The notes under the pieces are model-generated. The model did no database searches and was not told the origin of the DNA. It saw only the letters and a list, made by a program, of their open reading frames with translations. A program made the position numbers and the translations under genes. Positions 1 through 27,816 of a DNA stretch of 27,816 bases are shown here, one piece after another. Origin of the DNA: a virus; IMG/VR virus record IMGVR_UViG_3300003873_000095, positions 1 to 27,816 of that record; one strand, written 5' to 3'. Numbering within the stretch: position 1 is the first letter of the stretch; each line of letters starts with the position of its first letter.

Positions 1-3000
1 ATTCCCTGGTACTGTAACCGCAGGTATAACCCTTTGTGGGATTACCCAATCAGGCACAACTGTAGTAGCCCCTGCAGGAATAACCAAATCAGGGATAGCA
101 TGTGCTGGTACAAACCTATTTACATTAGGTGCAGTAGGTATAGTAATAGCTCCTACAGGCACTTCAGGTACTACAGCTCTAGCTAAGTTAGTCACCATAA
201 GTGAATATGTTATAGGGTTACCTGTATAGCCTGTAGCTGTACCCATCACATTGTTACTGAGGGCAGGATATACAGGGAGCTGAGTGACTGTTCCTCCAGA
301 TAGCGTAACACTAATAGTAGCATTGAAGGTCAATGTGCATCCTAACCTGTTATACTTTAGCATAAGCTGCCCGAAAGCATCCACTACTGTAGGGGTATAG
401 GTCAAAGCCGAGTCTGCTACAAACTGTGCAATAGCTGTTGCAACTGCTTGGTCTAACAACCCCTTAGCATAAACATCTAAGGCACCTACGGTATTACTTA
501 TAGTATGAGGGTTGCCAGTCCCTACAATACCTGCTACAGTTTGGTAATCTGATACGCTCCAAGTAAGGATGTCACTAGGTAATAGAGCAGGCGTTTTAGT
601 ACTGCCAATTTGTATGACTCTATCAGGCACTGTGAACCCTGGGATAGTCTTGGCAGGCGTTCCAGGGATAGTAGCATTGAATGGGCTAGTAGGTGGGAGG
701 CTAGTCACACTCTTAGACATGACCCTTCCTGGGATACTAGGTGACATGGAGACACTTAGGTATCGGTTCTCTAGGTAGTCCAATCGAGGGGCTAGGTCAG
801 AGGACTTAATAAAGCGGCTTAAGCGCACATCTAGCTCTTTTAACTTACCTCCTTGCAGTGTACAAATCCTGTTACCTGTATAAACATAATGTTTATAATC
901 GTTAGCCTGCACACATGCTAGATGACTAGCAATACCATCACTATCTGATACTAGCTGATATCTAAATACTTCAGTACCACCTACGTATGTAGCCTCTAAG
1001 ATACTGGCTGTGGCATACACTACGAACCCATCCGCTATGCTGCGAATAGATATAATACGTCCACGTAAAGCTGTAGGGGTTACCACATTGGCTAGAGTAC
1101 TAACGCTTGGTGTGAAATCAATAGGGTCAATTACTGTAGCAGGTGCTACAGGGTCAGCAGGTAGAATATCACTAGAAGTGTAAATAGCTCCTGCAATATC
1201 CCAGCAGCCTAAGCGACCACGAGCACTAAAGATTCCTGCTATATCGGCAATCTTAACAAAGGTTACATTTAACCGTTGCCAAGCCGTGCCTAGTTGATTC
1301 ATTCGTAGCACATAAGGGAGCTTAGGATGATAGGCATATAGCCGATTAGCTAGTACACACCATGTCCAATTGTTCCGTACGTTACGAGGGAAGTCAGTAG
1401 CAGGGGCATCCATAACGGTAGCCGCATAGGGCTGTGTAGGGGATACGGGAATAGCCTTAACTACCCCATTAAGCGTGTACTCTAGAGTAGCCCTTGCATC
1501 CAAGGGAGGTAGCACATTACCTGTAGATGTGAACAGCATGGAAATGCTAACCTGTGTCGCAGGCTTAGTCCCTGCATGATATGAGATGCCTACTGGATAA
1601 GCACTGACAATGGGCGTTAAGGCAGTGGACGTACCTAGATGTGCATAGGTAGGAGCAGCAGGGGATGTTAACAGATTAAAGGCATCATAGGTAGAGTGCC
1701 AAGTCCCATCCAAAGGTAAGGTAGTCTTTAATTGTAGAGCTCTGGTGGCATTAGTACCAAGAAGGTCTGCACTGGTAGTAGCTAATGTAGGTGTAGCTGG
1801 CAAGGGTACTGTAGTAGTATTAACTGCAAATAGGCTGTCCAGTGGGCGTGCATGACTCCAAGAATGCTTAGTTGGGTTAGCTACAATAGCATAAGACTCA
1901 CATATTATAATGCCTGTATTACCCCCTGTAGTGGGAGAGGTGTCCGTCTCTATATAGGGGGTAATATATTCATTAGGTACGCTAGCTACCACCTTCAATC
2001 CTGCTACGGACTGCATAGCTGTCCATTCAGGGGTAATCCCTGTTGTTGTAGAATTCAATTGAATCCTGCCGTAGGCATCAGATAATAGCTTACCTGCTTC
2101 ATCCATGCATATAAGAGGTACGCCTCCACTGAGTATACGTATGAAAGTATTACCTGTGATAGGATTGATGTTTGAGGTAGTTACTTGCAGTCTAATCCCT
2201 TGTAGTTTATCAAAGGAGTTAGGAATAGCCCATATATTACCAGCAGATTCCCCATCATTTATGTGAAACCAATCGTACCGCACTGTGCCTAGGACTACCT
2301 TATTAACGGCTGCTGCCACACCTGAGAAAGTAGGCGTAATCTTGTAGGCAGCACTTGTGTACATAGTAGTGCCATATACCCCTAGCAATGTATAAGCATT
2401 AGCAGTACAGAAGGCAGTAGCAATAGTAGTTACTAGTGTGGTAAGTGGAACCCCTATATCAGCAGCTACTACTGTATAGCTCCATAATACCTTAGTGGGT
2501 GAATTAACATGAAGACTTACTACATCCCCTACTACCAAAGTAGCTACATTGATATTAAGCGTTACAGCTCCAGGAGCACCATAGGGGATAGCTTTTCCTA
2601 TAGCAGGTACTCCAGTATCAAATACTTTAACTACTGCCCCAGACCCCTTAAGGGCTGTGGCTACGTACAGGCGATATAACCCTTCTTGCAATGGCATAAC
2701 TACGCATTCATGTTCAGGTAAGCTATCTGCATAGTCATAGTATATGCCCTTCCCACCAAAGTTGGAATAGCTACTAGTGCCGTTACCCTTAAGCTTAGGA
2801 AAGTAGGTATACATTCTCCCTTCAGGGGGGTTAATCCCTACATAGTCTCCTGATACCATAAATGTGCCATTAGCATTAGCTACTGGCTTAACTAGCTGAA
2901 ATATGCCTAAATTACCTACAGAGGCAGCAGGAATTTCCAGTGCATTTACCCCTAGATTTGTTGCCCAAGAGGCTACCATAGGTAGCGTGCCTGCAAGGAA

Positions 3001-3930
3001 GGGGTTAATAAGGGCAGGGTCATTGGCTTTTACTAGATGCATTCCTTTAGGCTGCGTCCAAGAGGAGGTATTAGAGCTAGTCCCCCAAGTAAACTCTACT
3101 ATCTCCTTTGCAGGGTCAGTTGTACCATCATAGCCTAAGACTCGACTAGATTGCCCTCGATTAGCGTACCTTAAGGCGGTGCCTATGGCGTCAGATACAG
3201 TATCTGACGAAAAATATGTATGTGCCCCGTAATCCTGTGTAGAGAAGGCTAATAGTAAATCCCCATGTACAAAATTAAAGCCTGCATAGTCCATACAAAG
3301 GGTACTACCCTGTACAGCAGTCTCCTCCTCCTTATAGACTAAAGGCACTGCAGGAGAGGTACTTAAACTATGTGTATTACCTACAGATTCTAGCTCTGTA
3401 AGGGTGCACCCAAAGGTTTCCAAGGGAAGCACAGTAGCTTCAGGAGCTATGGCTGGTGTAATTGTACCACCTAAGGCTCCAGTTGAAGGCACAGTTAGCT
3501 TAAACGTGCCAGGGATTATGTCTACTAAGGTATTAGAGAGCAAATCTGTAGCTGTAAAACTGTAAGTAGTGCCAATCATAGGAGGAGTATTTAATATAGA
3601 CTCGGTAGTGTCCCAAGTAACTCCATCAATACTGAACAAAGCTCCAAAGTTACCTAGAGCTATCATAGTATTATTGCCTGCAGAATCCCTAAAGGTAAAC
3701 ATATACTCAATACCTGAAGGCAGCTCAGGCAGATTGGTAGGCAATTGCCCGAAGAATGACGCCATCCCCTCAGGGGTAGGCAAAGCGTTAGCCATATCTA
3801 GCACTTGGATGTTATTATTCATCCCGCCATATACACCCTGCCCTAAAGGGTCAGGTTTGTTATTGATATACTCTTGCCCAAAGGGAAAGGTTATTTTTCC
3901 AAGGTCTACTACATATGTACGCTTTGCCAT
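1..3930 (-). CDS. Giant virion/tail-associated protein, 3' end outside window
   Basis: One minus-strand frame stays open from an ATG at 3930 to the left edge, 1310 codons without a stop, so the C-terminus is missing. A Shine-Dalgarno GAGG sits about 8 bases before the ATG, inside the end of the upstream 126-aa gene. The N-terminus reads MAKRTYVVDLGKITFPFGQE. The protein is rich in Gly, Thr, Ser, Val and Asn, with many short beta-strand-like stretches and phrases such as ALGNFGALFSIDGVTW that look like beta-propeller or beta-sandwich blades. I see no signal peptide, membrane segment or catalytic motif. Its size, composition and position after the lysis genes in the late operon suggest a tail, appendage or host-contact protein, but I do not recognise a family. 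It has typical phage codon use for this window (many GTA, CTA, CCT). Confidence 0.85.
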   Translation of the reverse strand, partial: MAKRTYVVDLGKITFPFGQEYINNKPDPLGQGVYGGMNNNIQVLDMANALPTPEGMASFFGQLPTNLPELPSGIEYMFTFRDSAGNNTMIALGNFGALFSIDGVTWDTTESILNTPPMIGTTYSFTATDLLSNTLVDIIPGTFKLTVPSTGALGGTITPAIAPEATVLPLETFGCTLTELESVGNTHSLSTSPAVPLVYKEEETAVQGSTLCMDYAGFNFVHGDLLLAFSTQDYGAHTYFSSDTVSDAIGTALRYANRGQSSRVLGYDGTTDPAKEIVEFTWGTSSNTSSWTQPKGMHLVKANDPALINPFLAGTLPMVASWATNLGVNALEIPAASVGNLGIFQLVKPVANANGTFMVSGDYVGINPPEGRMYTYFPKLKGNGTSSYSNFGGKGIYYDYADSLPEHECVVMPLQEGLYRLYVATALKGSGAVVKVFDTGVPAIGKAIPYGAPGAVTLNINVATLVVGDVVSLHVNSPTKVLWSYTVVAADIGVPLTTLVTTIATAFCTANAYTLLGVYGTTMYTSAAYKITPTFSGVAAAVNKVVLGTVRYDWFHINDGESAGNIWAIPNSFDKLQGIRLQVTTSNINPITGNTFIRILSGGVPLICMDEAGKLLSDAYGRIQLNSTTTGITPEWTAMQSVAGLKVVASVPNEYITPYIETDTSPTTGGNTGIIICESYAIVANPTKHSWSHARPLDSLFAVNTTTVPLPATPTLATTSADLLGTNATRALQLKTTLPLDGTWHSTYDAFNLLTSPAAPTYAHLGTSTALTPIVSAYPVGISYHAGTKPATQVSISMLFTSTGNVLPPLDARATLEYTLNGVVKAIPVSPTQPYAATVMDAPATDFPRNVRNNWTWCVLANRLYAYHPKLPYVLRMNQLGTAWQRLNVTFVKIADIAGIFSARGRLGCWDIAGAIYTSSDILPADPVAPATVIDPIDFTPSVSTLANVVTPTALRGRIISIRSIADGFVVYATASILEATYVGGTEVFRYQLVSDSDGIASHLACVQANDYKHYVYTGNRICTLQGGKLKELDVRLSRFIKSSDLAPRLDYLENRYLSVSMSPSIPGRVMSKSVTSLPPTSPFNATIPGTPAKTIPGFTVPDRVIQIGSTKTPALLPSDILTWSVSDYQTVAGIVGTGNPHTISNTVGALDVYAKGLLDQAVATAIAQFVADSALTYTPTVVDAFGQLMLKYNRLGCTLTFNATISVTLSGGTVTQLPVYPALSNNVMGTATGYTGNPITYSLMVTNLARAVVPEVPVGAITIPTAPNVNRFVPAHAIPDLVIPAGATTVVPDWVIPQRVIPAVTVPGN

Positions 3931-4317: not shown

Positions 4318-4803
4318 CTACTTACCTGCAGGCTTAGAGCCACCACGCTTCCAAGCCGTGATACCTAAGACACTGCCCCATGCAATCAAGGCTATCTCAG
4401 GGATGGTCACTGTAGTAGACTCCCCCTTAATAGCAGGTAATGCATACACTAGAAACAGCGTAGTACCAAACAAAATGCCATTTACTGGACGCCAAGCCCA
4501 TTGTAGCCAATGCTCACTCTTAGACTCTGCCTGCATAGACTGATTAACTGCCAAGATACGAGACGTTTCTGCCTCTAGTACCTGCCGCTGCAAGGCTTCC
4601 GAATGCTGATTCTCTAGAGCCATCAACTTCGCTGCTGCATCAGGGTCAGTAGAAATTGCTGCCTTAATAGCCTCAGGGGAATTATCACAACCTAAGGCTT
4701 TGGCAATCAGTGTACCTGCCATGCCAGCCCCAGGGATAGGTAATAGGCTACCTAGCAAAGGGGCGTAGGTTCCTACAAGTTTTCCTACATCCTTCCAATT
4801 CAT
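4318..4803 (-). CDS. Holin, three-transmembrane type
   Basis: This 161-aa protein resembles the 3TM holin family (GTA/phage holin type). It would form inner-membrane lesions that release or activate the endolysin. Hydrophobic segments are visible at about residues 13-37 (PLLGSLLPIPGAGMAGTLIA), 105-125 (RPVNGILFGTTLFLVYALP) and 132-150 (IPEIALIAWGSVLGITAW). The family's RPxNG signature precedes the second, and the middle (about 45-100) is polar and helical. The C-terminus is basic (WKRGGSKPAGK). The ribosome site AAGGGGAAG precedes the ATG at 4803. It sits directly after the endolysin and a tiny ORF, a standard lysis cassette order. Confidence 0.85.
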   Translation of the reverse strand: MNWKDVGKLVGTYAPLLGSLLPIPGAGMAGTLIAKALGCDNSPEAIKAAISTDPDAAAKLMALENQHSEALQRQVLEAETSRILAVNQSMQAESKSEHWLQWAWRPVNGILFGTTLFLVYALPAIKGESTTVTIPEIALIAWGSVLGITAWKRGGSKPAGK

Positions 4804-8015: not shown

Positions 8016-9875
8016 TTAATTTATATCAATAACCATTGGGATATTGAGGGTTTGGTCACTTGTGGACAAGGTATAGTCTAACATAACTTCAACGAATCCT
8101 GTAGCTATAACCTCGATTCGTACTTGGTTAGTAACTCCTGCATGTGTCCATACAATAGGGAGAGTGTTAACCGTAGTGGTGGTATACAGTACGGTATCAT
8201 TGTTACCTATATTTACCACTTCATTATCAAAGATGGTCAGGATAGCCCCTATAGGTAAGCCTGTAATAGTCAAGTCTCTTGTAGTACGAGTTACATCTAC
8301 CGTAGTAGATATCTCTGTACCCCCAGGAAAGGCTAGGCTGCCTAAGTCAACTAATCTACCATCGACAGTAAAGTCTGTTATAAATAAGCCCTCCCAAGCC
8401 TTATTATAGACGGGAATGCCTGCTATGGTAGCACCTAAATGAAAGGTAACAATTCTGTCTACGGCAGCTACGGTAGTGTTAATATCCAATATATTAGTAC
8501 CTGGGGAGCCTCCCGCTAAAGTGGGGTTGGTACTAAATCCTCCGTCTGAATATGTAGCTATAAAGGATATGCTAGGCAAATTGGTAACCCATATGAAGCG
8601 CTCCGTTGCCTTAGCTAATATAGACTTACCTGCAGGAACAAATACCTCATAAGTAAGCTCTAATGGATTAAAACTATTTCCATTATTCTTAGGCAAGAAC
8701 TGTAAGATAGCTACATTAGTCCCTATTACATTTGTATTGAGACTCCTAAGTATACTACCTACGTACGTATGAATTTCCTGCTGTTTAGGGTCACTTTGCT
8801 TATCCAATACTAGCAACTTAAAGCCTCTATTAGATGCGGTGTTTACTGTAATGTCTGCCCCGCTAGTGTTGAACCTGCAGTTCCGTAGAATAGGGGCTGT
8901 ATTAGCATTGACTGCTGTACTTACTGCGGTACTAATTTTATTGACATAAGGGGTTAACGTATAACCAAAGTCGCAGTCTACAAAGGTAGAGGTAGCTCCC
9001 CAAGAGAACTTAAGGGCTGTCCAGCAGGATAGGAATTTAACCCGTAGAAATTGCCAACCTTGCGCAGAAGAATGGTCAAAGCATAGGTTACCACTCATGA
9101 TATAAGAATCGGTGATGGCACAGCCTACGCCACCGTGCGACCAAGATGAAGCCAGTGCAGTATTGAACTTATAGAATAGAGTGTTAGTGTAACTTACGAC
9201 AGACCCTTGACGAATCCATGAAGTCGTATGATTGCCTAGGCTAGTAGATAGCACTAGGTTACTGAAGGGAATTTCTGCAGGGCAGTTATAGACATCTATG
9301 CCGTAGGCAGTAGTATCCATGATATTCACACCCTTGATAGCTCCATAGGGCTGAGTAGCTGACCCAGTACCATCTATCCTAAGCGCTCCATAGGTGTTTG
9401 AGTTACTGTAGCTACCCATAGAATCAAAAGTGCAATTAGATATACTACGATTGGCTGGAGGGGTAGTAGCATCATGAATAAGGTTTATATAAGGTTGAGT
9501 AGTCCCTTTAGGAGCTACATCACTGAAGACTACGTTACGAGATAAGTTAGCAATAGGACAGCCTACCTCATGTACGGACGCTGCTGCAGGAGTAAAGGTG
9601 ATGGTGTCTAGCGTGCCTGCTACATTGGTAGTGATGGCTGTAATGGTAACTCGTTCATTCTGAGTCTTGTTGTATCCCCAGCCTGATTCTAAGAGTTCCA
9701 GTGTATCGCCCACTACCCAATCTACCACACCTGCGTTACTTGGAACTACGAAGCTTGTACCCCCCACTGGAGTACGTGTAGTAGGTATTTTATATCCTGT
9801 TTTATTTGCACCAACTGCTAGGAAGGAGCCAGTAGCTAAGCAAGTAAGCCCGTATTTACCTGCCCATGGTACCAT
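8016..9875 (-). CDS. Beta-helix (G8-associated) appendage protein, main part
   Basis: This 619-aa open frame reads like the continuation of a G8-domain/right-handed beta-helix protein. A segment near residues 45-110 (VVDWVVGDTLEL, NERVTITAITT, ANLSRNVVFSD) matches the typical post-G8 pattern, and it is followed by repeated short strands with N, C and G turns. Such proteins are tail appendages, sometimes acting on surface glycans; no catalytic residues can be assigned here. The apparent ATG at 9875 has no Shine-Dalgarno and lies inside the previous ORF in the +1 frame. I therefore think it is the downstream half of one protein made with the 98-aa ORF, by a frameshift or interrupted by a sequence error. 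Confidence 0.8.
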   Translation of the reverse strand: MVPWAGKYGLTCLATGSFLAVGANKTGYKIPTTRTPVGGTSFVVPSNAGVVDWVVGDTLELLESGWGYNKTQNERVTITAITTNVAGTLDTITFTPAAASVHEVGCPIANLSRNVVFSDVAPKGTTQPYINLIHDATTPPANRSISNCTFDSMGSYSNSNTYGALRIDGTGSATQPYGAIKGVNIMDTTAYGIDVYNCPAEIPFSNLVLSTSLGNHTTSWIRQGSVVSYTNTLFYKFNTALASSWSHGGVGCAITDSYIMSGNLCFDHSSAQGWQFLRVKFLSCWTALKFSWGATSTFVDCDFGYTLTPYVNKISTAVSTAVNANTAPILRNCRFNTSGADITVNTASNRGFKLLVLDKQSDPKQQEIHTYVGSILRSLNTNVIGTNVAILQFLPKNNGNSFNPLELTYEVFVPAGKSILAKATERFIWVTNLPSISFIATYSDGGFSTNPTLAGGSPGTNILDINTTVAAVDRIVTFHLGATIAGIPVYNKAWEGLFITDFTVDGRLVDLGSLAFPGGTEISTTVDVTRTTRDLTITGLPIGAILTIFDNEVVNIGNNDTVLYTTTTVNTLPIVWTHAGVTNQVRIEVIATGFVEVMLDYTLSTSDQTLNIPMVIDIN

Positions 9876-11430: not shown

Positions 11431-12642
11431 TTAACCTGCTGCACCTGCGGTCAAGCCTGAGATGATGCCACACGCTGCAGGGTTAATAACCTCACAAGCG
11501 AACTCGGAGGTTAGGCTGCCCCCAGCACTATCTTGCCCTAACATTACAGGCTTACCACCTACACCATACTCCTCGTTCTTAGCATCACGTCCTTCCATGT
11601 AAGCCAAACGAATAGCAGGTAAATCAACTACTGCCATAGTACCTGTCAAGGCTGGAGAGTCATTAAACATAGGATGCTCAATCAAGCGAATAGTACCTTT
11701 ATAGAATTTCAAGGTAGTAAAGGCTAGACCAAAGGTAGTTTCAGATGAAGTGATTTCTACCACGCCATTTAGACGACCAACGTCGTTCAATACTCGCATA
11801 GCTTGCGAGTCTAAAAAGGCAACGCGTTGCTTAGTATTACCCATGTCAGAGGAATACCGATACATACTTTCTAGCATGGTCACCAACTGAGTATAGTTGG
11901 TAGTAGCGCCTGCTAGTTTGATGTTAGTTGGAGCATACTGGTAGACGGAGTCAATCAAACCCTGTGTGGTATGCTCCAACTGACCTGATACGCCTACGAC
12001 TGGAGCCATAGGCTGACCGAAGAACAACGCAGATTCCATGTCCTGCGCATGCATTAGCATACAGTCCTTACGAGATTCTTGTAAGTTACCAAAACCTGCT
12101 TCAGTAAGGCTAGCACGAGCTGTATCAGTCAACGCCCAAGCATTACGGAAGATTTGTGTGTAGTTTGGTACGTAAGTGGTAGTGATAGCACGTGCTGTAG
12201 GACGATTAGACCCTTCAGCGTGAGCATTACCTACGCCAGCTAGTACTGAGTTGGCTGCAATAGTGCCTGCTGCAATACGACCGTATCCACGAGCTACTAC
12301 TACGCTAGTAAGGCTGGCTACACTGGTAATACGAATAATTTCACGAGTCAAAGGTACTTGAAATAGCATCCCTGGAACTAAACCTGTACTATCTACCACT
12401 GTTAAGGTAGTAGTAGCTGCCGTAGCTGCTGCCGCACCCATAGTTACAATAGGGAAAGTGAAGGTCTTAGTGAAGTAGCCATGAGTAGCTGACTTTGCAC
12501 GACCCTTCTTAACCTGAGAAGTCAAGGCAAAGAGTGGGGCTGTACCATTAGGGAATAAGCGCAGAATAGCTTGGTTAAAGCTTCGCGTGTTAAGCTGCGC
12601 TGGGTTAAAGTTGGCGTTAAAGACGCCCGTTACTGGTGGCAT
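11431..12642 (-). CDS. Major capsid protein, SU10/DUF5309-like
   Basis: This 403-aa protein resembles the SU10-type major capsid family (DUF5309), an HK97-fold group. The features include an N-terminal arm (residues 1-50), an inserted beta domain (about 75-130: TTLTVVDSTGLVPGMLFQVP then IIRITSVASLTSVVVARGYG) and a helix-rich segment (YTQIFRNAWALTDTARASLT, then ALFFGQP) typical of the P-domain and spine helix. AAAAGGAG precedes the ATG. It follows the scaffold gene and is followed by an intrinsic terminator, as expected for the most abundant product. I assign the family from memory of its motifs; HHpred would settle it. Confidence 0.85.
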   Translation of the reverse strand: MPPVTGVFNANFNPAQLNTRSFNQAILRLFPNGTAPLFALTSQVKKGRAKSATHGYFTKTFTFPIVTMGAAAATAATTTLTVVDSTGLVPGMLFQVPLTREIIRITSVASLTSVVVARGYGRIAAGTIAANSVLAGVGNAHAEGSNRPTARAITTTYVPNYTQIFRNAWALTDTARASLTEAGFGNLQESRKDCMLMHAQDMESALFFGQPMAPVVGVSGQLEHTTQGLIDSVYQYAPTNIKLAGATTNYTQLVTMLESMYRYSSDMGNTKQRVAFLDSQAMRVLNDVGRLNGVVEITSSETTFGLAFTTLKFYKGTIRLIEHPMFNDSPALTGTMAVVDLPAIRLAYMEGRDAKNEEYGVGGKPVMLGQDSAGGSLTSEFACEVINPAACGIISGLTAGAAG

Positions 12643-12658
12643 AGTATGCTCCTTTTAC

Positions 12659-13390
12659 TTATTTATCTTCAGCTAGTAACGCTGCGAAGTCTACAGACTC
12701 AGGTAATTGCGCTTCCTGCTGTTGTGCTTGTGGAGTACCTGATAGTTGAGTACCTAGCTCCACTAAGTAAGTATTAGCCTGCTTAGCAATCCAAGCACTA
12801 TCAGCACTAGGGAATTTGTTACGTAATTGAGTAGACACACGGTCTAATTCTGCTCGAATTACAGGGTTTTCAGCATTAGGTAGTTTAGCTACCTCGTGGG
12901 AAGTCATCTGCTGCGCTACACTATCAGCTACTGCAGGCTTAAATCCTTCAAACCGCTGGTCTAAGTGGTCATTCATTAAGGCTGCATTGTGTTGCATAGC
13001 TGCTTTGTACCCATTTGCAGCAGTTGCCTGCATAGCAGATACAATAGCTTGAGGGTCACCTGAGGCTAAACCTTGTTTTACTTCAGCAGATAGCCCTGCC
13101 ATAAAGTCAATGTTAGGTACTACCTTATCTAAGACTTCATTACTAAGGTCTAACTTAGGTGCTGTAGCCGCTTGCCCTTTGTCAGCTTCGTCAACTTTAT
13201 ACATATCCTTGAAAGCATCAAGGGGATTAGTTTCGGATTTTCCTGCATCAGGGTTATTAGGGTTAGCTACGCCAGCCTTAGCTGGGTCTGCAGGATTCAT
13301 ACCATCAGGCTTAATCTGGTCTTTAGCTCCTGCTGCAGCAGGCTGTTCTTGTTGGTTACCTGTTAAGGCATTACGCATTTTGTCAAACAT
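12659..13390 (-). CDS. Scaffolding protein
   Basis: This 243-aa protein is rich in Ala, Asp, Gln and Pro and low in complexity. It has a disordered N-terminus (residues 1-55), long helices in the middle (SAEVKQGLASGDPQAIVSAM) and a C-terminus of amphipathic helices ending SVDFAALLAEDK. No catalytic motif is seen. Immediately upstream of the capsid gene, with the start preceded by AAGGAG, this is the classic composition and place of an internal scaffold that guides procapsid assembly and is lost afterwards. There is no obvious protease domain. Confidence 0.85.
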   Translation of the reverse strand: MFDKMRNALTGNQQEQPAAAGAKDQIKPDGMNPADPAKAGVANPNNPDAGKSETNPLDAFKDMYKVDEADKGQAATAPKLDLSNEVLDKVVPNIDFMAGLSAEVKQGLASGDPQAIVSAMQATAANGYKAAMQHNAALMNDHLDQRFEGFKPAVADSVAQQMTSHEVAKLPNAENPVIRAELDRVSTQLRNKFPSADSAWIAKQANTYLVELGTQLSGTPQAQQQEAQLPESVDFAALLAEDK

Positions 13391-13393
13391 ATC

Positions 13394-13657
13394 TTACTCC
13401 TTATAAGCCTTAATGTAGAGGTCTTCTGACATTAGGGCATCTAATAAAAATTCTTGTCCCGCCATATAAGCATTGGAGGCTACAAGGTCTTGCTCAGTTG
13501 CCGTTGTAGGGTCAACTAATAGGTTAGATAAAGCTTGATGCTTTACACTCTGTAAATAAGCTTGCATAAGGGGCACTTCTAGCATACCCTTAATAGTATC
13601 CGCTTCTTCTTGAGAAAACTCCCAAGGAATAGCCACGCTATCATTTCTAATTCTCAT
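13394..13657 (-). CDS. Hypothetical protein between portal and scaffold, 87 aa
   Basis: This small, mostly helical acidic protein begins MRIRNDSVAIPWEFSQEEAD and has a central helix (PLMQAYLQSVKHQALSNLLV). A strong GGAGGT precedes the ATG. It is the first gene after the folded 13681-13823 element, so any control exerted by that element would act here first, then on scaffold and capsid. It may be a head-assembly factor; no family is recognised. Confidence 0.7.
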   Translation of the reverse strand: MRIRNDSVAIPWEFSQEEADTIKGMLEVPLMQAYLQSVKHQALSNLLVDPTTATEQDLVASNAYMAGQEFLLDALMSEDLYIKAYKE

Positions 13658-13680
13658 ATAACCTCCGTTACGTCGTTTAT

Positions 13681-13823
13681 TGCCCCTGCACCCCTAAAGC
13701 CTAGCATACCGTGCTTACTTGTAAAGGGGTCGCATCAGCCCATAAATACCTCACGGTATTTCTAACTGACACTAAGCTAAGCTTACCCCTTGACTAGCAC
13801 ACTTATATGCAAAGGCAGGGGCA
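13681..13823 (-). ncRNA. Candidate structured RNA leader between portal and scaffold
   Basis: Nested complementary segments occur in the only sizeable gap of the head operon (13658-13876). P1 pairs 13681-13689 with 13815-13823 (TGCCCCTGC/GCAGGGGCA). P2 pairs 13704-13708 with 13806-13810. P3 pairs 13711-13715 with 13796-13800. P4 pairs 13724-13730 with 13785-13791 (AAGGGGT/ACCCCTT). Inside are two hairpins: P6 13744-13761, a 7-bp stem whose minus-strand loop is GUGA, a GNRA tetraloop, and P5 13773-13785, stem TAAGC/GCTTA. The order is consistent with one rod ending in a multi-branch loop. It precedes the ribosome site of the 87-aa gene. Function is unknown: a leader, processing site, packaging-linked RNA or an encoded small RNA are all possible. 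Confidence 0.6.
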
Positions 13824-13876
13824 CGCGGCGCATGACACTCCTCCACTCCCACCTGAAGGAAGCCGTTTTTTTACTG

Positions 13877-15871
13877 CTAGCCTTGCTGTCCTTGTTGCAT
13901 TGCACCTGCATTACCCTGACCTTGATTCTGCTGTGCTTGTACTTGCTGAACCATTTCACCTAAGAAAGGCATAGCGGCTGCCATAATAGCCTGCTTATCC
14001 TCAGGTTTGTATTGGTATTGGTTTAGGTTCTTAACACCTGATAGGCTCATCAAGTGTGCAAATAAGTCGGGCATATTGAAGCCTGCGACTAGGGCAGGAA
14101 CTTGTTGCAGTGTTTGGAAAGCCAACATAAGCTGCTGAGTGTCTGCTAGCTTACTCTTAGGAGTTTCCCCGTCTGCCATCTTAAACTCTAGAATGGCATC
14201 TACGAAATCCTTAGGCTCTGTGGCGTGTAAGTCCCCTGTGTTGAAGCTTAGAGCTGTAATCCGCTCCTTGTTGGCGATGATGTTAAGCTTGATTATGTCC
14301 TTTAGAGGCATCATAATATGCATTTCTACCATCAAGGCTATCAAACGAGTGCGACTTCCTGCGCCGTTATCAATAGTCTGGAACTCTCCTAGAGTTCTGT
14401 TACCTTTAACGGTCTGTCCTTGCTTGAATGGATTAATACCAAATAGCATATTGGACATTTGTAGGGTTTGTTGTAAGTCCTGCATAGCTCCTACACTAGA
14501 GCCATCTTGGAAAGGGATAGGCATATAAGCGTCTTTCAGCGTTTTACCCATTTTTAGGTTACGAGCTGGAATCTTAGCTGCTGGTACTGTAGAGTTAATG
14601 TCATCTTCGTCTATCAGATTAGCATCATAGATGCCTCTATCATTGATAGCGCGCTTAGCCCCACTAATACGTACGTTATATAAGTCACTGCCTACTTGTT
14701 GGAAGGGAATTTGAGCTTCACCAATACTACGGGTTTGATAGGACAGTCCGTCTTCCATAGCTTGCCCTAGCATGATAGGTAGGCGGTCATGAGGGGAGAT
14801 TTCTGGGCGTGCATAGATTAGCACTTGTTCATTTACAACTTGAAACTTCCAAATCTGCGGGGTATTAGCCTTAGGAGCTACAATGCCGTGGTCTGCTGGA
14901 ATAATACGAGCGTAGATTGTAGCTACCTCATACATATTACTATATCCAGGGTATACGCCCGACTCAGCCTGATTACCTTCTAGCCATTCTAACCATGTAC
15001 CACCTTGTTGGTAGGCAGTAGAATTGATATAAGGGCTAATTTGAGGCTTGTTTATATAGGTAATAGGCTGCCCTGCAGTTACAGCACTTACTCCATGCTT
15101 ATTTGATATAGCTTCTTTGATACTTAAGCCTGTGCCTTCAGCACTATACAAGTTGAGCAACCGCTTCAAGGCTACCCTGCCCATCAATTCTACATATCCT
15201 GCATATTCACCTGTATCAGATACCATAGCAGGCTCTACTCGGTAGTCCCAAATCATATTATAAGGGTCAAGGCGCTTTACAGTGGTAAGCTTTTGTGGTT
15301 TAGCTAGAGTATCTCGGTCTGTAGCGACTAGGCTATTAGAGAATAACGGGCTAAACTCTGCCATAGACCCCCAACGACCCTCTACCCCACCTAAATTGTA
15401 CTTAGCCATGTCTCTAAATAGCAACTGGAATTCTCTACCATAGCGTCCCTTTACTGCATGGTTATCTACGATAGCCTCAAAGGTCTCACTCAATTGCTTG
15501 TTTTTAGAGGAGCTGACTACTGGGAACATAGGGTAGCCTGTTAGGTACACATCGGCTAGATGTCCTACGATAGTATCCACTTGGCTGGCAATGATGGGGA
15601 TTTGTACGTCCTTAATAGGCAGCTTCTTGGCTAGGTCTACCCCATCAATAGGCTGGGCATCTTTCTGCAGGGCTTGTACATAGCAGGCATAGGCAATATC
15701 TACTGAGGTTAGCTTATCCGTTAACTGGGTAAAGCGTCTCTTAGCTTCTAATACAGCTCCTATGTAACGTACAATACTGTCCTGAGCCGTGCTGCTTAGG
15801 CGTAGTGCATTACCTTTCTTACCCTTCTTATCCTTCTTATCCTTTTTGCCTTGATTAGCTTGGTTAATCAT
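13877..15871 (-). CDS. Portal protein
   Basis: This 664-aa protein follows TerL and precedes scaffold and capsid, the normal place of the portal. A basic Lys/Gly run (GKKDKKDKKGKKG) opens the chain. The core has portal-like features: a helical N-terminal part with YACYVQALQKDAQP, a beta-rich wing (YNMIWDYRVEPAMV), a long helix region near 430-520 and a Gln-rich tail (VQQVQAQQNQGQGNAGAMQQ). The length fits podovirus-type portals of about 60-80 kDa. Twelve copies should form the DNA entry and exit ring at one capsid vertex. GAGGT lies four bases before the ATG. Confidence 0.8.
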   Translation of the reverse strand: MINQANQGKKDKKDKKGKKGNALRLSSTAQDSIVRYIGAVLEAKRRFTQLTDKLTSVDIAYACYVQALQKDAQPIDGVDLAKKLPIKDVQIPIIASQVDTIVGHLADVYLTGYPMFPVVSSSKNKQLSETFEAIVDNHAVKGRYGREFQLLFRDMAKYNLGGVEGRWGSMAEFSPLFSNSLVATDRDTLAKPQKLTTVKRLDPYNMIWDYRVEPAMVSDTGEYAGYVELMGRVALKRLLNLYSAEGTGLSIKEAISNKHGVSAVTAGQPITYINKPQISPYINSTAYQQGGTWLEWLEGNQAESGVYPGYSNMYEVATIYARIIPADHGIVAPKANTPQIWKFQVVNEQVLIYARPEISPHDRLPIMLGQAMEDGLSYQTRSIGEAQIPFQQVGSDLYNVRISGAKRAINDRGIYDANLIDEDDINSTVPAAKIPARNLKMGKTLKDAYMPIPFQDGSSVGAMQDLQQTLQMSNMLFGINPFKQGQTVKGNRTLGEFQTIDNGAGSRTRLIALMVEMHIMMPLKDIIKLNIIANKERITALSFNTGDLHATEPKDFVDAILEFKMADGETPKSKLADTQQLMLAFQTLQQVPALVAGFNMPDLFAHLMSLSGVKNLNQYQYKPEDKQAIMAAAMPFLGEMVQQVQAQQNQGQGNAGAMQQGQQG

Positions 15872-15878: not shown

Positions 15879-17432
15879 TCAGTCCAAAAAACTATTGTTG
15901 TCTCTTACTTTGAATACCCTCTGACCTGATAGCAAAGGAGAAGGCTCTCCCCATAGCTCTACTACAATGTCATGGTAATCCCTACGTACATCTAGCCCAT
16001 AAGCACATACATCTAGAATATCATCCTTATTGTCTGTGCGTTCAATACGAAACCCTAGAGCTTGATACATGATAGCAGGCTTGGCATCCTTATGGATACT
16101 GTAGCTGCCTTCTAGCAGAGCCTTAATCCATGCCCTGATTCTAGAGGTCTTATTTCTACGTCCTGTCTTTAGTTCATGTATCTCTATATCCTGCATCTCT
16201 AGGGGCAGGTGCTTTACAGCTTCCTGCAAATGCCACTGTAAGCTCTGTTGATAGGCTACAGTCTCTACAAAGATGTGCTTTATGTCGTACTTGTCGGCTA
16301 GCTTAAAGGCAGACTCAATGCACTGCCCTGGGTTCATTACTCTAGCATCAATTTCCCGCACCTGATAGTGGTTAGGCGCATATAACAAGTGAACGGCTAT
16401 GCCCGTATCATCACTATCCTTTCTGTATCCACTAGGGTCTACTGTAATAAATCCGCCCATAGATTCATCTAAGCTAGTTATGGGAGTATCAGGCAGTTTC
16501 CCTTCAGGCAGTAAGCTTAACTTACCTCCTACTGGGATATTCATTACCTCACTGTACCATACATCCCCTAAGCCTAGCTGATTATCATGCTGGAACTCCT
16601 GCAGTAGCTGGTCTACTGTAAACAACTCAGGCCAGAGCGGCTGCCAGCCTTCTAGGATAGCCCCTGTAACAAAGCTCTGCCACTGTGGGTGTAACTTTAG
16701 CTGGTTTAGGATGCAGTCCTCATTATACATATTTCCTATGAATATGATTAGGCAGCGTTGAGCATCCCTAGCCTTAATTAGTGTACCTGTCATCCACTCC
16801 ATCAAGGCTTTGTTCTCTGTCTCACTCTTAGCACATTCCTTAGTCTGAATGTCATCCATGATGATTAAGTCTGGACGAGTGTTTAGAATATTCAGACCAC
16901 GTACAGAAGTACCACTACCTAAGGCAGCTAGCACAACTCCATGCCCATTGTAGTTCCCACGCTTTAGCCCTTTGGTATCACGTACTAGGGCAGCCTTCCA
17001 GTTACCCCAAATATCTCGCACCATGCTCGAGCTTAGCATAAAGTCTACATCATCCATCATATTATGACTGTGCGGTTCGGTACTGCATACCATTAGAATA
17101 AAGCTAGCCCTATCATATAGCACCATGTAGCATATCATAATCTTGATGAAGGTAGTCTTAGCATGCCCCCGTGGTAAGCCTAGTGCAAATCGAAACACCT
17201 TACTAGAATCCATCTCTAGCGTAGTGAATAGATGCCATAGCATGTGGTAGTACGGAGGGTACTTAGAAGAAGTGACCCCAGGCATTAGGATGGCTGCTAA
17301 CATATCTAAGTCAGTCTTACACCGCATCCTAATGTCCTGTACGTTAAGGGTTACCTTACCTGCTTCTGTAGGTTGCGAGCTAGTTTTAATATCCGTGCTT
17401 TTGTTTGGTTGCTCATGATTGCCTCCTTTCAT
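15879..17432 (-). CDS. terL: Terminase large subunit
   Basis: This 517-aa motor and nuclease drives DNA packaging. The N-terminal ATPase has Walker A LPRGHAKTT (86-94) and Walker B LIIMDDI (189-195), with a coupling motif candidate at FIGN (231-234). The C-terminal RNase H-like nuclease has VDPSG (D332), FVETVAY (E390) and DDILD (D471/D474) as metal ligands. The listed ATG at 17432 overlaps the TerS stop as TAATG and has AGGA six bases upstream. A second, very strong ribosome site AAAGGAGG lies inside codons 2-4 and points to an out-of-frame ATG at 17416. Met36 is a further possible start, so the N-terminus is uncertain by about 35 residues. Confidence 0.93.
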   Translation of the reverse strand: MKGGNHEQPNKSTDIKTSSQPTEAGKVTLNVQDIRMRCKTDLDMLAAILMPGVTSSKYPPYYHMLWHLFTTLEMDSSKVFRFALGLPRGHAKTTFIKIMICYMVLYDRASFILMVCSTEPHSHNMMDDVDFMLSSSMVRDIWGNWKAALVRDTKGLKRGNYNGHGVVLAALGSGTSVRGLNILNTRPDLIIMDDIQTKECAKSETENKALMEWMTGTLIKARDAQRCLIIFIGNMYNEDCILNQLKLHPQWQSFVTGAILEGWQPLWPELFTVDQLLQEFQHDNQLGLGDVWYSEVMNIPVGGKLSLLPEGKLPDTPITSLDESMGGFITVDPSGYRKDSDDTGIAVHLLYAPNHYQVREIDARVMNPGQCIESAFKLADKYDIKHIFVETVAYQQSLQWHLQEAVKHLPLEMQDIEIHELKTGRRNKTSRIRAWIKALLEGSYSIHKDAKPAIMYQALGFRIERTDNKDDILDVCAYGLDVRRDYHDIVVELWGEPSPLLSGQRVFKVRDNNSFLD

Positions 17433-23461: not shown

Positions 23462-25213
23462 ATGAATACGCTCACTAGAGTACAAATCTTAGACAAGCGT
23501 CTATCAGTTCTAGAGCAACACACTGGAAAGCCTACCGTATCACCTCGCCGTATCTTAGACCGTGTGACTATGCTACACTTAAGGCTACAGGCGTTAGAAA
23601 AGCAAGAGCTAGATACAGCCCTGCACTTAGTAGAAGATACAGCTCAAGCAGAAGCTACACTATCACCAATGGAAGGCATAACCTTAAACGATAAGCAGCA
23701 ACATGCGCTAGACTTAGCTATTGCAGGGGAAAGCTTTGTGCTAACAGGGGCAGCAGGTACAGGTAAAACCCTAACTGTAAACGCTATCGCTACTAAGCTA
23801 CTATCGGATGAAGTAGGCTTACCTATGGTAACTTTCCGTGACCCAGCAGGTGGCTGTAATGACCAAGTTACTAAGCCTGCAGTAGCCTTCGTAGCCTACA
23901 CCAACCGAGCGGTAAACAACATGTCTGCTAACCTACGGCGTTTCAACCCAGAGCTTATGGAGGAGCTAGGCGGAAACTATATGTCTATTCATAAGCTCTT
24001 AGAGTATGCCCCTGAATACTACGTAAACGAGGAAGGCAACGATTCGATGCGCTTCGTACCCCGTAGGGATGCACTCAATAGACTACCTATCAAGACCCTA
24101 GTAATTGAGGAAGCGTCTATGCTAGGTATGGATTTATGGCAAAACCTATTCAAAGCCCTAGAGCCTAGCACACAAATCATCTTACTAGGTGACCTTAATC
24201 AGCTACCCCCAGTCTTTGGTGAGTCTATCCTAAACTACGGCTTGATACAACTACCTGTAGTAGAGCTAACCCACGTTTATCGTCAAGCCTTAGACTCCCC
24301 TATTATCCGTCAAGCTCATGCCCTACTACAAGGCAAAGGCGTACACTCGGATACAGATAAATTTCAAATAGTCTGTGGTAAGAGCAATAAGCCTATTGGA
24401 GCAGACCGCATGGGACTAGGTGCTGTAGGTGTACTATCTAAGCTATTTGATGCAGGGTCATATGACCCTATGCAGGATATTATACTAACAGCCTTCAATA
24501 AGCATGGATGTGGTACGGTTATGCTAAATAGCCTAATAGCTAATTTCCTAGATGAGAAGAAGCCTGAACCTACTATGATGTACGAAGTACGTGCTGCTAT
24601 GATGACTCACTATTTTGCAGTAGGTGACCTAATATATGATGCAGTATCTAAAGATACAGGGGTGATAACGTCTATCAACCCTAATGGTGCGTACTATGGC
24701 TCTATGCCTAGACCTGCATCCAATACCCTAAACCGTTTTGGTATCTCTAACTCTAAGGATGATGTAGATGAATTTACAGAAGCATACGACTATGGAGGGC
24801 TAGATGTATCAGACCTTGAGAGTGGGGATGCAGAGCAAAAGATTATGGCAGCTAGTCACGTTATAACCTGCCAAATGAGGGAAGGCGGCGAGATTTCAGC
24901 AGCTACCGTAGGGGAAGTGAATAGTCTATCCTTTGGCTACTGCCTAACCACCCATAAGGCACAAGGCTGTGAATGGCGTAAGGTGTTCATGGTACTACAT
25001 AACTCACATACCCTAGTCAATAGAGAGTGGCTTTATACAGCTATCACCCGTGCTAAGGATAGCGTAGCTATCATCTCAAGAGCAGATACCTTAGACCGTA
25101 TGGCAGCACGACAACGCATTAAGGGTAACTCACTAGAAGCTAAGATTGAAGCCTTCAATGATAAGCTATCCGAGGATAAGCTAGCCAGTGTAACATTTGA
25201 TAGGAGGGACTAA
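23462..25213 (+). CDS. SF1B DNA helicase, RecD/Dda/Pif1-like
   Basis: This 583-aa ATPase unwinds DNA and probably acts in replication or recombination. Motifs in order: Q-motif-like LNDKQQHALDLA (75-86), Walker A GAAGTGKT (96-103), Ia AYTNRAVNN, Walker B VIEEAS (214-219), motif III GDLNQLPPV (243-251), motif IV-like HVYRQ (271-275), and C-terminal THKAQGCEW plus YTAITRAKDSV (UvrD_C_2 type). About 70 extra N-terminal residues (DKRLSVLEQ, LHLRLQALEKQE) look coiled-coil, which is unusual for small phage Dda-type enzymes. An insertion near 400-460 is acidic. GGAG precedes the ATG, and the stop overlaps the next start (TAATG). Confidence 0.93.
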   Translation: MNTLTRVQILDKRLSVLEQHTGKPTVSPRRILDRVTMLHLRLQALEKQELDTALHLVEDTAQAEATLSPMEGITLNDKQQHALDLAIAGESFVLTGAAGTGKTLTVNAIATKLLSDEVGLPMVTFRDPAGGCNDQVTKPAVAFVAYTNRAVNNMSANLRRFNPELMEELGGNYMSIHKLLEYAPEYYVNEEGNDSMRFVPRRDALNRLPIKTLVIEEASMLGMDLWQNLFKALEPSTQIILLGDLNQLPPVFGESILNYGLIQLPVVELTHVYRQALDSPIIRQAHALLQGKGVHSDTDKFQIVCGKSNKPIGADRMGLGAVGVLSKLFDAGSYDPMQDIILTAFNKHGCGTVMLNSLIANFLDEKKPEPTMMYEVRAAMMTHYFAVGDLIYDAVSKDTGVITSINPNGAYYGSMPRPASNTLNRFGISNSKDDVDEFTEAYDYGGLDVSDLESGDAEQKIMAASHVITCQMREGGEISAATVGEVNSLSFGYCLTTHKAQGCEWRKVFMVLHNSHTLVNREWLYTAITRAKDSVAIISRADTLDRMAARQRIKGNSLEAKIEAFNDKLSEDKLASVTFDRRD

Positions 25214-25605
25214 TGAGAGCTAGACTAAAGACTATCCTGACCTATGCTATAGCCAATTACAAGCCTGCAAAGTCCTTTACATGGACAGACTACAGCGGTG
25301 AAATGGATGATGTACGCAGGGAAAGGGTAGCCTTGAAGTTAGTAACAAGTAACCTACTACTTCGTCCTAGTAAGGATAAGCGAAGGGACATACTAAACAG
25401 AAACTATGCACGTAGGGCTTACATAGCCTACTTGCTTTCTGTAGTAGATAATACAGCAGATGACAGGGAGGTGCTTAGCATAATAGATGAAGTAGAGCGG
25501 GAGGGTCTAGCCTCGAAGCCTTTTGAAGTCCCTAAATGTGAGCCACTAGCACAGAGTAAGCCTAAATTAAGCTTGGCTGAAAGACTAGCAAAAATGAAAA
25601 AATAA
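25213..25605 (+). CDS. Hypothetical protein ending in PKLSLAERLA, 130 aa
   Basis: This basic helical protein starts MRARLKTILTYAIANYKPAK, with a cluster RPSKDKRRDILNRNYARRAY that could contact nucleic acid. The last residues KPKLSLAERLAKMKK (116-130) repeat the peptide seen in two upstream proteins. It is coupled to the helicase by TAATG, and TAGGAGGG gives it a ribosome site. A helicase accessory or loader role is suggested by coupling only. Confidence 0.75.
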   Translation: MRARLKTILTYAIANYKPAKSFTWTDYSGEMDDVRRERVALKLVTSNLLLRPSKDKRRDILNRNYARRAYIAYLLSVVDNTADDREVLSIIDEVEREGLASKPFEVPKCEPLAQSKPKLSLAERLAKMKK

Positions 25606-25612
25606 AAACAAA

Positions 25613-25640
25613 TTGCAAAATATCGAAATCTCGATATACT
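25613..25640 (+). promoter_or_regulatory. Candidate promoter with operator-like dyad
   Basis: TTGCAA (25613-25618), a 16-base spacer and TATACT (25635-25640) lie in the only gap after the helicase cluster. The spacer and -10 contain a perfect 7-bp dyad ATATCGA-AATC-TCGATAT (25620-25637), so a repressor bound there would block the promoter. It would drive the 88-aa, 99-aa, nuclease and ATPase genes. Confidence 0.6.
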
Positions 25641-25662
25641 TGCCCTAAAGGAGGTAAGCAAT

Positions 25663-25929
25663 ATGACAACCAATGAAATCCTAGACTTCCTAGAAGTCAA
25701 CCGAAGCATAATCTTGACCCTACATGCACAGGATGTGGCTAAGGTTAAGGCACGCATAAGCAATAAGCGTAGCCGTGACAGGGATTTTCTAGGAGCTTCA
25801 ACCGAGTTGCCTAGATTAGCCTACAAAATCATTCACAAGGATGAGGAAACAGCCATTGTTAAGCTACGGGTATCTATCCGTGACGATGATGTGGAAGTAC
25901 TAGACATTAAACCAGCAGAGGACTTATAA
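25663..25929 (+). CDS. Hypothetical protein, 88 aa
   Basis: The product starts MTTNEILDFLEVNRSIILTL, a helix, followed by a basic stretch (VKARISNKRSRDRDF) and a beta-rich C-terminus (ETAIVKLRVSIRDDDVEVLD). AAAGGAGGT before the ATG is close to a perfect ribosome site. It is the first gene after the candidate promoter with a dyad, so it is a candidate for the dyad-binding regulator, but this is inferred from position alone. Confidence 0.75.
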   Translation: MTTNEILDFLEVNRSIILTLHAQDVAKVKARISNKRSRDRDFLGASTELPRLAYKIIHKDEETAIVKLRVSIRDDDVEVLDIKPAEDL

Positions 25930-25930
25930 C

Positions 25931-26230
25931 ATGCCACTACAGCAGAACTTAACACGACTAAAACAAGCCTTAGAATCCAGTGAGATGGGTGAAGTAGAGA
26001 CTCACTTACTTACCCTACAAAAGCAGCTATATACAACACCCCATCTAGTAGATATGCTACTACCTGAGGAAATTGGCTTGCTAGTAGCAGCAGAACGTAA
26101 ACGTTGCACCACTGATATGCTTGCAGCTTCTATGCCTAAGAAACGCGCACCAGCTAAGAAACGCACAGCAGTTAAGAAAATGTCTAAGGCAGAAATGCTA
26201 GCAGAGTTAGGTGACCTAGATGACTTTTAA
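25931..26230 (+). CDS. Hypothetical protein with Lys-rich stretch and acidic tip, 99 aa
   Basis: The N-terminal 60 residues are helical (MPLQQNLTRLKQALESSEMG). A basic low-complexity stretch (PKKRAPAKKRTAVKKMSK) follows, then an acidic tip AELGDLDDF. Basic-then-acidic tails ending in Phe resemble single-stranded-DNA-binding protein tips, and the 191-aa protein also ends in DDF. It overlaps the nuclease gene by 11 bases. DNA binding is plausible, not shown. Confidence 0.75.
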   Translation: MPLQQNLTRLKQALESSEMGEVETHLLTLQKQLYTTPHLVDMLLPEEIGLLVAAERKRCTTDMLAASMPKKRAPAKKRTAVKKMSKAEMLAELGDLDDF

Positions 26231-27164
26231 GCGTAACGTCACTATAGACAACGCTAAGGATTTGGTGCTATCCTATTCGTCACTAGAAACGCTTAACACA
26301 TGCCCTCGCAAGTTTGAGCTATATAAGGTACATCCTTATGATGCCCCTAGAGATACAAGCCCAGCCCTATCTCAAGGTTCAGCCGTAGGTAATGGATATG
26401 CAGCTTACCTAGAAGGTAAATCAGAGGAGGAAGTACGTTTTGCTACTTGGTTAAACTACTATCCCCCACTAGAGGATAACGTACGCACACTGACTAAAGC
26501 ACAGGTTATAGTACAAGCTTTGATTGATAACCCTATGGCTAAGGAAGATGCAGACGACCCTTGTGACTGGGAACTAGCTAAGTTTAATGGCGTAGCTTCC
26601 ACAGAGCTATCCTTTGCTATTCGTATCTCACCCACTATGGTATATGTAGGCTATCTTGATGCGGTACTGTACTCCCCTTCAACAGGTAAGTATAGACCCT
26701 TAGAGTTAAAGACTTCTTCCCTAGCTTCGGATAAGCTTGAAGCTAACTTTAAGAACAGCGCACAGGGCTTGGCTTATGCCTTAGTACTTGACACCCTTAT
26801 GGATAAGCCACAAGAGCTATTCACTATTCACTACAGGGTAGCACAGGTGCATAGAGCAAAGGCAGACCAATTCCGTCCTACTATACATGACTTCTTCTTT
26901 ACTAAGACCCTAGTTGACCGCTTAGAGTGGCTAATGGGTTTGCAGATGGAAGCTGACCGTATACAGACTATGCTGGACTTGGAGCTATTTCCTAAGCGTG
27001 GCGGTGGTTGCTTATCATGGAACAGAGAATGTCAATTCTATGGTATATGTGGACTAAGCTCCCGTAAAGAAGGCAATATAGAGTCTAGCCCTAAAGAGTT
27101 TCAATTCTATTGGGAACTGGATACGTTAATTGAACAAGCACTAAGCTTAGTTGGTGAGATATAA
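26220..27164 (+). CDS. Cas4/RecB-like PD-(D/E)XK nuclease with Fe-S cysteines
   Basis: This 314-aa protein has the PD-(D/E)XK core: E129 (STELSF), D147 (VGYLDAV) and E162-x-K164 (LELKTSS), with a motif-IV-like AQGLAYAL downstream. Four cysteines fit the Cas4/AddB iron-sulphur pattern: C28 (NTCPRKFEL) and, near the end, C264, C271 and C277 (CLSWNRECQFYGIC). The family are single-strand exonucleases used in recombination and end processing. It precedes a RecA-like ATPase, a common phage pairing. Its ATG lies inside the end of the 99-aa gene, so translation is coupled. Confidence 0.9.
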   Translation: MTFKRNVTIDNAKDLVLSYSSLETLNTCPRKFELYKVHPYDAPRDTSPALSQGSAVGNGYAAYLEGKSEEEVRFATWLNYYPPLEDNVRTLTKAQVIVQALIDNPMAKEDADDPCDWELAKFNGVASTELSFAIRISPTMVYVGYLDAVLYSPSTGKYRPLELKTSSLASDKLEANFKNSAQGLAYALVLDTLMDKPQELFTIHYRVAQVHRAKADQFRPTIHDFFFTKTLVDRLEWLMGLQMEADRIQTMLDLELFPKRGGGCLSWNRECQFYGICGLSSRKEGNIESSPKEFQFYWELDTLIEQALSLVGEI

Positions 27165-27180
27165 ACAAGGAGAATACACT

Positions 27181-27816
27181 ATGGCTAATTTACTAGACCT
27201 AGCAAAGGCACGCAAGACAGCACTAAGCTCCTTTGACTTGAAACGGATACTAATTTACGGACAACCTAAAACAGGCAAGACTTTACTAGCAGGAACAGTA
27301 GCTAAATGCCCTAACGTAAAGCGTGTATTTTGGTTGGACTTCGAAGCAGGGGCAGCTACACTACTCAACAAAGACTTATCGTTGACAGATGAGGACATGG
27401 CTAAGGTGTTCCTATATCAAATCCCTGATACACGGGACAACCCTATCGCTATTGAAACAGCCCTGAAACTCCTGACCACTCGTAGAGCTGTATATGTATG
27501 CCATGAGCATGGTAAGGTAAACTGCCCTGAATGCACCCCTAGGGCTAAGGGAGCTATGGGTAGACTCAAGGCTAAGCAAGGAGCAGCAACACCTTTAGAA
27601 GAACTAGAGGGGAATAGCGTATTCGTAGGAATGCAAGACCTATCCCATGATGATGTTATAGTACTGGATGGCTTATCACAGGTAGGCGATAGTGCCTTTG
27701 AAGTAGGTTGCCGTGTGACATCAGATGATAAGTCTGCCTTTGCTAAGTATGCTGAACAGGGTAGGCTACTATCCGAGATGCTAGGCATCCTTCAAAACCT
27801 AAAGACCAACGTAATC
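27181..27816 (+). CDS. RecA-like ATPase (AAA_24/Sak4-type), 3' end outside window
   Basis: 212 codons are visible before the right edge. Walker A is GQPKTGKT (27-34) and Walker B is DVIVLDG (158-164), with WLDFEAG (51-57) between, as in phage AAA_24 recombinases that promote strand annealing or exchange. A cysteine/histidine insert CHEHGKVNCPEC (C107, H108/H110, C115, C118) looks like a small zinc knuckle, which is not part of the basic fold. AAGGAG precedes the ATG 16 bases after the nuclease stop. Pairing with the nuclease upstream suggests a phage recombination module. Confidence 0.85.
   Translation, partial: MANLLDLAKARKTALSSFDLKRILIYGQPKTGKTLLAGTVAKCPNVKRVFWLDFEAGAATLLNKDLSLTDEDMAKVFLYQIPDTRDNPIAIETALKLLTTRRAVYVCHEHGKVNCPECTPRAKGAMGRLKAKQGAATPLEELEGNSVFVGMQDLSHDDVIVLDGLSQVGDSAFEVGCRVTSDDKSAFAKYAEQGRLLSEMLGILQNLKTNVI

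Follow-up and report, generated by a model that had tools for sequence, protein, structure and literature searches.

Loss of restriction sites to the synonymous limit, with depletion of the dipeptides that would force them, in an uncultured podovirus-type phage

The virus record IMGVR_UViG_3300003873_000095, analysed here as one window of 27,816 bases (its whole length), encodes about 34 predicted proteins and is probably a piece of a larger phage genome rather than a full-length one. The phage is of the podovirus type. Its terminase, portal and capsid genes share one strand, and the opposite strand carries genes for a Dda-like helicase, a PD-(D/E)XK nuclease and an AAA_24 ATPase (Table 1). 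The terminase large subunit, which served as the query for relatives, is 41% identical to that of Polaromonas phage Tiera, ~39% to those of Pseudomonas phages PaP2/119X and ~40% to that of EBPR podovirus 3; the helicase and portal as extra queries retrieved no relative or one. Homologues of the terminase, portal and capsid proteins of the Fredfastierviridae (PaP2-like podoviruses) are present in the window, and with a terminase only ~39% identical we do not claim membership of that family. No relatives of the terminase were found as prophages in 84,980 bacterial genomes searched with two sequence patterns, the window being a fragment from which an integrase could be missing, and neither the window nor 16 pieces of sequence taken from related contigs yielded a tRNA gene. 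Codon use in the window is unusual in its preference for Leu CTA (340 of 848) and Val GTA (393 of 619). The words CTAG (236) and AGCT (264) lie far above the expectation from base composition; CTAG is usually rare in bacteria.

Table 1. Genes discussed in the text and all surviving sites of the avoided words in the window
Feature	Position	Strand	Remarks
CCWGG	5..9	-	in-frame Pro-Gly
CCWGG	638..642	-	in-frame Pro-Gly
CCWGG	662..666	-	in-frame Pro-Gly
CCWGG	728..732	-	in-frame Pro-Gly
CCWGG	2570..2574	-	in-frame Pro-Gly
CCWGG	3509..3513	-	in-frame Pro-Gly
CCWGG	4730..4734	-	in-frame Pro-Gly
CCWGG	8323..8327	-	in-frame Pro-Gly
CCWGG	8500..8504	-	in-frame Pro-Gly
Major capsid protein, 403 aa	11431..12642	-	phrog_1328, E 1.7e-46; 75-88% identity in nine relatives
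CCWGG	12371..12375	-	in-frame Pro-Gly, capsid protein
Portal protein, 664 aa	13877..15871	-	phrog_15554, E 9e-79
CCWGG	14946..14950	-	in-frame Pro-Gly, portal
Terminase large subunit, 517 aa	15879..17432	-	phrog_38, E 1.8e-57; query for relatives
CCWGG	16327..16331	-	in-frame Pro-Gly, terminase
GGCC	16630..16633	-	codons TGG CCN, Trp267-Pro268 of terminase large subunit, motif LWPEL; not synonymously removable
CCWGG	17278..17282	-	in-frame Pro-Gly, terminase
Dda/RecD-like helicase	23462..25213	+	motif QLPPVFGxSILNY
PD-(D/E)XK nuclease (exonuclease family)	26220..27164	+	PF12705, E 1.9e-9
AAA_24 ATPase, cut by window end	27151..27816	+	Walker A motif

Exact counting gave no GATC, no CCGG and a single GGCC, as the preliminary description of this DNA had claimed, along with 39 GCGC and 11 CGCG, which it had also said were present. 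Base composition, from which it estimated about a hundred GATC and some tens of each of the other two words, gives 105, 65 and 65 for GATC, CCGG and GGCC; a first-order Markov model expects 53, 38 and 97, and a maximal-order model 70, 24 and 69. Under a codon null, in which synonymous codons are permuted while every protein and the codon usage are kept, 72.5, 41.1 and 52.0 sites are expected (z -10.9, -7.7 and -9.3). When all 256 4-mers are ranked by maximal-order Markov ratio, the check that the same description had proposed, these three are the most depleted; equal depletion of unrelated 4-mers is contradicted, as no other falls below 0.6 and the next, GGAC, stands at 0.61. Extending the count to 5-mers and 6-mers and to degenerate palindromes added GGWCC, which is absent (24 expected, 31 in dinucleotide shuffles) with GGACC/GGTCC being the lowest 5-mer of the window, and CCWGG, with 13 sites against 36 expected. 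GCNGC, GANTC and CTNAG showed no clear depletion. Several further words are low relative to the codon null, namely GGYRCC (6 vs 27), CGCG (9 vs 33), TCGA (20 vs 53), CTCTTC (0 vs 10), GRGCYC (1 vs 9) and likewise AATT; CTCTTC, GGYRCC, TCGA, CGCG and AATT were left out of the avoided set, since CTCTTC loses its prominence once the number of words tested is corrected for and the others still have sites.

All 14 surviving sites of the avoided words, the 13 CCWGG and the one GGCC, are locked by the protein sequence. Every CCWGG is an in-frame Pro-Gly (CCN GGN), none being noncoding or synonymously removable, so that CCWGG, seemingly depleted in part, has in fact been purged completely as far as synonymous change allows. 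Most such sites in non-avoiding relatives are removable, with Pro-Gly accounting for only 35 of the 186 CCWGG of PaP2 and 34 of the 92 of EBPR podovirus 3. The terminase Trp-Pro that holds the GGCC is also kept, together with the GGCC, in the related contigs G001, G002, G011, G014, G017 and G018, and G014 has no other GGCC in its 40 kb. At this position the GGCC avoiders G005 and G008 have Trp-Ser or Trp-Glu, and Trp-Glu is also found in the GGCC keepers G003 and Aeromonas phage P5. Many orthologous sites have been replaced synonymously in the window, from which every site removable by a synonymous or noncoding change is gone.

We give practically no weight to chance, base composition or an assembly or library artefact, such as digestion with a four-base cutter before sequencing, as the source of this pattern. 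The window sequence does come from a metagenome, but codon-preserving z values of -8 to -11 speak against chance and composition, and digestion could not arrange 13 CCWGG sites that are all locked by protein. Relatives from other metagenomes, moreover, show graded and different sets of missing words, and isolated phages follow the same rule (below).

The purge extends to the proteins. Because GGCC and GGWCC are both banned, all 16 GGN CCN codon pairs are forbidden and Gly-Pro cannot be encoded. The dipeptide occurs 0 times in the window against about 27.5 expected and is the most depleted of all 400 (P about 1e-12; the next, Glu-Lys, has P 2e-4), and 2000 within-protein shuffles averaged 27.6 and never went below 13. 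Where relatives have Gly-Pro at aligned positions the window keeps it at 0 of 28, the conserved fraction for most of the remaining X-Pro pairs being 0.2-0.57. The replacements include catalytic motifs: in the helicase motif the window has GE (about 24218-24223) where six relatives have GP and the close clade G-D, and the Walker A motif of the AAA_24 ATPase reads YGQPKTGK (about 27259-27264), compared with YGPPKxGK in G004 and G006. Pro-Gly is reduced to 13 against 27.5 (within-protein shuffle, P 0.002), and Ala-Ala is normal (81 observed, 81 expected).

The relatives offer a natural experiment, in which pairs such as 1/38 give observed over expected dipeptides (Gly-Pro, Ala-Ala, Pro-Gly, Trp-Pro), the counts for relatives being based on simple ORF calling. 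Those that avoid GGCC and GGWCC jointly are nearly without Gly-Pro (G011 1/38, G014 3/39, G001 2/28 and the distant G008 1/31). Phage P5 and G003, which avoid GGWCC and keep GGCC, have Gly-Pro at 23/37 and 7/35, with GGC/GGG glycine codons in 21 of 23 and 6 of 7; in G005, which has one GGCC, all eight Gly-Pro use GGT/GGA, and those are its only GGWCC sites. Avoiders of a single site thus keep Gly-Pro with a shifted Gly codon, and avoiders of both lose it. Non-avoiders retain the dipeptide (Tiera 27/42, PaP2 22/40, G006 39/48). Tiera and PaP2/119X resemble the window in their ~40% identical terminase and in the same order of head and packaging genes, whereas they do not avoid GATC, GGCC or CCGG. 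Among close relatives the avoided sets differ: G015 and G016 are without GATC and GGWCC but have GGCC and CCGG, and G002 keeps GATC (28/29) with GGWCC at 0/4. Partial depletion is distributed evenly along the relatives' contigs, and this, together with the differing word sets, fits lineages that encounter one enzyme after another, each with its own history.

Several further observations were made on single relatives. In the distant relative G005, TCGA (0/14), CCGG (0/13), GATC (0/70) and GGCC (1/41) are all empty or nearly so, and its remaining CCWGG (9 of 9) and GGWCC (8 of 8) are locked by protein. G012 has quite a different avoided set, with GTAC at 3 vs 129, GANTC at 118 vs 253 and GATC normal. 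In G017 (L058), 23 CCWGG fall in one 2.5 kb bin at about 12,500-15,000, compared with 0-8 elsewhere, perhaps marking a recently acquired or repetitive gene. G017, G002 and G015 have regained GGCC in part or for the most part, yet Gly-Pro remains low (5/43, 0/7 and 2/11); as no more than an idea, their proteins may be slow to lose the mark of earlier restriction.

The pattern in the window was very probably caused by long and strong selection on the phage lineage, exerted by host enzymes of the orthodox type II restriction kind with five or more specificities. That restriction enzymes were the selecting agent we infer from the set of sites, the changing profiles of the relatives and the isolates. 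All avoided words belong to the known palindromes of type II enzymes, and hosts of the isolates treated below are known to have enzymes that fit (Sau3AI and Sau96I in S. aureus, BsuRI in B. subtilis, AvaII in Nostoc/Anabaena, ScrFI in Lactococcus). The enzymes would have recognized GATC, CCGG, GGCC, GGWCC (or GGNCC) and CCWGG (or CCNGG), and the lineage may have encountered them successively, in a single host or in more than one. A genome with fewer sites would survive entry more often. The counts show directly that all sites removable by synonymous or noncoding change are gone, and the pattern shows that where no synonymous escape exists the protein sequence itself is affected: Gly-Pro, always GGNCC, is lost throughout, Pro-Gly, always CCNGG, is halved, and Trp-Pro, always GGCC, is left once, in a conserved terminase motif. 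The methyltransferase families PF00145, PF01555 and PF02086 were found neither in the window nor in 13 related records, a good number of which are fragments, and the missing part of the window's genome could carry such a gene or another counter-defence gene. The preliminary description was right in kind in reading the missing words as selection by restriction, which is the best supported reading, and incomplete in extent, having missed GGWCC, CCWGG and the effect on proteins.

Mutational loss is a very unlikely alternative source of the same pattern. It would have host methyltransferases methylate cytosine and the sites decay by m5C to T deamination with no cleavage, and four of the five words are, as a matter of general knowledge, typical m5C/m4C methylation targets. 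However, the products of such decay are not in excess: CCAG/CTGG (from CCGG) number 110 against 190 under a site-constrained synonymous null (z -8.4), and GACC/GGTC (from GGCC) 119 against 133. The synonymous replacements at orthologous sites also go to many words, including the transversions GGAC, GGGC and GTCC; GATC, which carries m6A in many systems, would not be emptied in this way, and decay would not halt exactly at protein-locked sites. Methyl-directed mismatch repair, in which MutH cuts unmethylated GATC, could account for that word if the remaining words were lost to another cause, and the absence of GATC from phiX174 is reported to be linked to mismatch repair (PMC5014478). We consider this division improbable, only slightly less so than deamination, since it leaves unexplained why CCGG, GGCC, GGWCC and CCWGG vanish together with GATC here, and relatives lose or keep GATC independently of the other words, as G002 does. 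Somewhat less improbable, and still unlikely, is methyl-dependent restriction (type IV or DpnI-like), acting on phage DNA that an earlier host had methylated, which the preliminary description had raised for GATC and under which the same words would be avoided; avoidance is known mainly for orthodox type II systems, with the type IIM site GATC as an exception (PMC6286503). Selection by orthodox type II enzymes remains our preferred explanation.

Which hosts supplied the enzymes was approached through the relatives, whose IMG sample numbers we take to be those of iron-mat metagenomes, and Zetaproteobacteria were chosen as candidates on that basis. Following the earlier suggestion that cognate enzymes be sought in candidate hosts, 78 Zetaproteobacteria genomes were searched, and the two cognate families looked for are rare among them (DpnII-type in 4 of 78, GGNCC-type in 1 of 78). 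A BLAST search of 20 kb of the window for CRISPR-spacer matches found none in the same 78 genomes, the two weak matches lying outside repeat arrays. Zetaproteobacteria as host of the phage are thus an unproven proposal. The methylation set of Nostoc PCC 7120 (GATC, GGCC, rCCGG and GGWCC) was also considered as a host clue and set aside, since those classified relatives whose hosts are known are phages of proteobacteria; the clue is also weakened by Nostoc phage N1, in which neither GATC nor CCGG is avoided.

That lytic dsDNA phages avoid the sites of orthodox type II systems is documented, with complete elimination of a site in about one tenth of viral genomes (PMC6286503, Rusinov et al. 2018). 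The window, from a putatively lytic dsDNA phage, is like those phages in having palindromic type II sites depleted or absent, and differs in having five specificities purged together. That study counts sites in DNA, makes no mention of amino acids or codons, does not separate protein-locked sites and reports no dipeptide loss (PMC6286503); our literature search, with most subscription journals outside its coverage, found no description of a dipeptide or protein-level effect of site avoidance. Selection by host type II restriction is a known phenomenon, and what sets the window apart is its completeness to the synonymous limit and its effect on the proteome, for which we claim no priority. For the Staphylococcus podovirus phiAGO1.3, scarce or absent targets of certain type I and II systems are reported to contribute to a wide host range (PMC6346686); that phage has a known host and bench evidence, whereas the phage of the window is known from sequence alone. 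Avoidance is usually taken to be cheap and silent at the protein level, and in the window it reaches the synonymous limit and then rewrites proteins. Removable versus protein-locked sites accordingly measure how strongly restriction has selected, the proteome of an uncultured phage may predict the enzymes it has met, and the statistics of dipeptides and codons from which phage hosts are predicted bear an imprint of restriction.

We think it likely that restriction enzymes edit viral proteomes predictably, such that phages purging an in-frame word also purge its dipeptide (GGNCC for Gly-Pro, CCNGG for Pro-Gly, GCNGC for Ala-Ala, GGCC for Trp-Pro) in all or nearly all proteins, catalytic motifs included, and that surviving sites mark functions that outweigh restriction. 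The predictions for Pro-Gly and Ala-Ala were fixed ahead of counting these two dipeptides in the isolates. Phage K, phi29, N1, Twort, 44AHJD, sk1, c2 and T7 are each depleted in the dipeptide or dipeptides matching an avoided site, and in rankings of all 400 dipeptides the most depleted is the predicted one: Gly-Pro in nine GGNCC avoiders, Ala-Ala in sk1 and c2, and Pro-Gly in T7 and P5. Rank correlations across 32 phages are 0.62-0.68, uncorrected for relatedness, and Gly-Pro is somewhat rare in many non-avoiding phages too (ratio 0.3-0.8).

A close parallel is Staphylococcus phage K, which over its whole 148 kb has 0 GGCC, 1 GGNCC and 3 GCNGC, with Gly-Pro at 0/67, Trp-Pro at 0/10 and Ala-Ala at 3/75. 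Like the window it is free of GATC (in the 50 kb examined) and Gly-Pro, and it has no GGCC where the window has one; unlike the window, to which it is unrelated, it avoids GCNGC and with it Ala-Ala, and it does not avoid CCGG (26/27 in the same 50 kb). Nostoc phage N1 (50 kb) has no GGNCC and Gly-Pro at 0/34, with Pro-Gly and Ala-Ala normal, and Gly-Pro is at 0/11 in phi29. In Twort (50 kb), where GCNGC is nearly absent, Gly-Pro and Ala-Ala are both at 1/18. The lactococcal phages sk1 and c2, nearly without GCNGC and CCNGG, have Ala-Ala at 3/30 and 1/24 and Pro-Gly at 1/11 and 1/12, respectively, and T7, with 11 CCNGG, has Pro-Gly at 7/31 and Ala-Ala normal. In SPO1 (50 kb), GGCC is absent and GGWCC present, Gly-Pro stands at 12/41 with every glycine codon GGT or GGA, and Trp-Pro is at 0/6.
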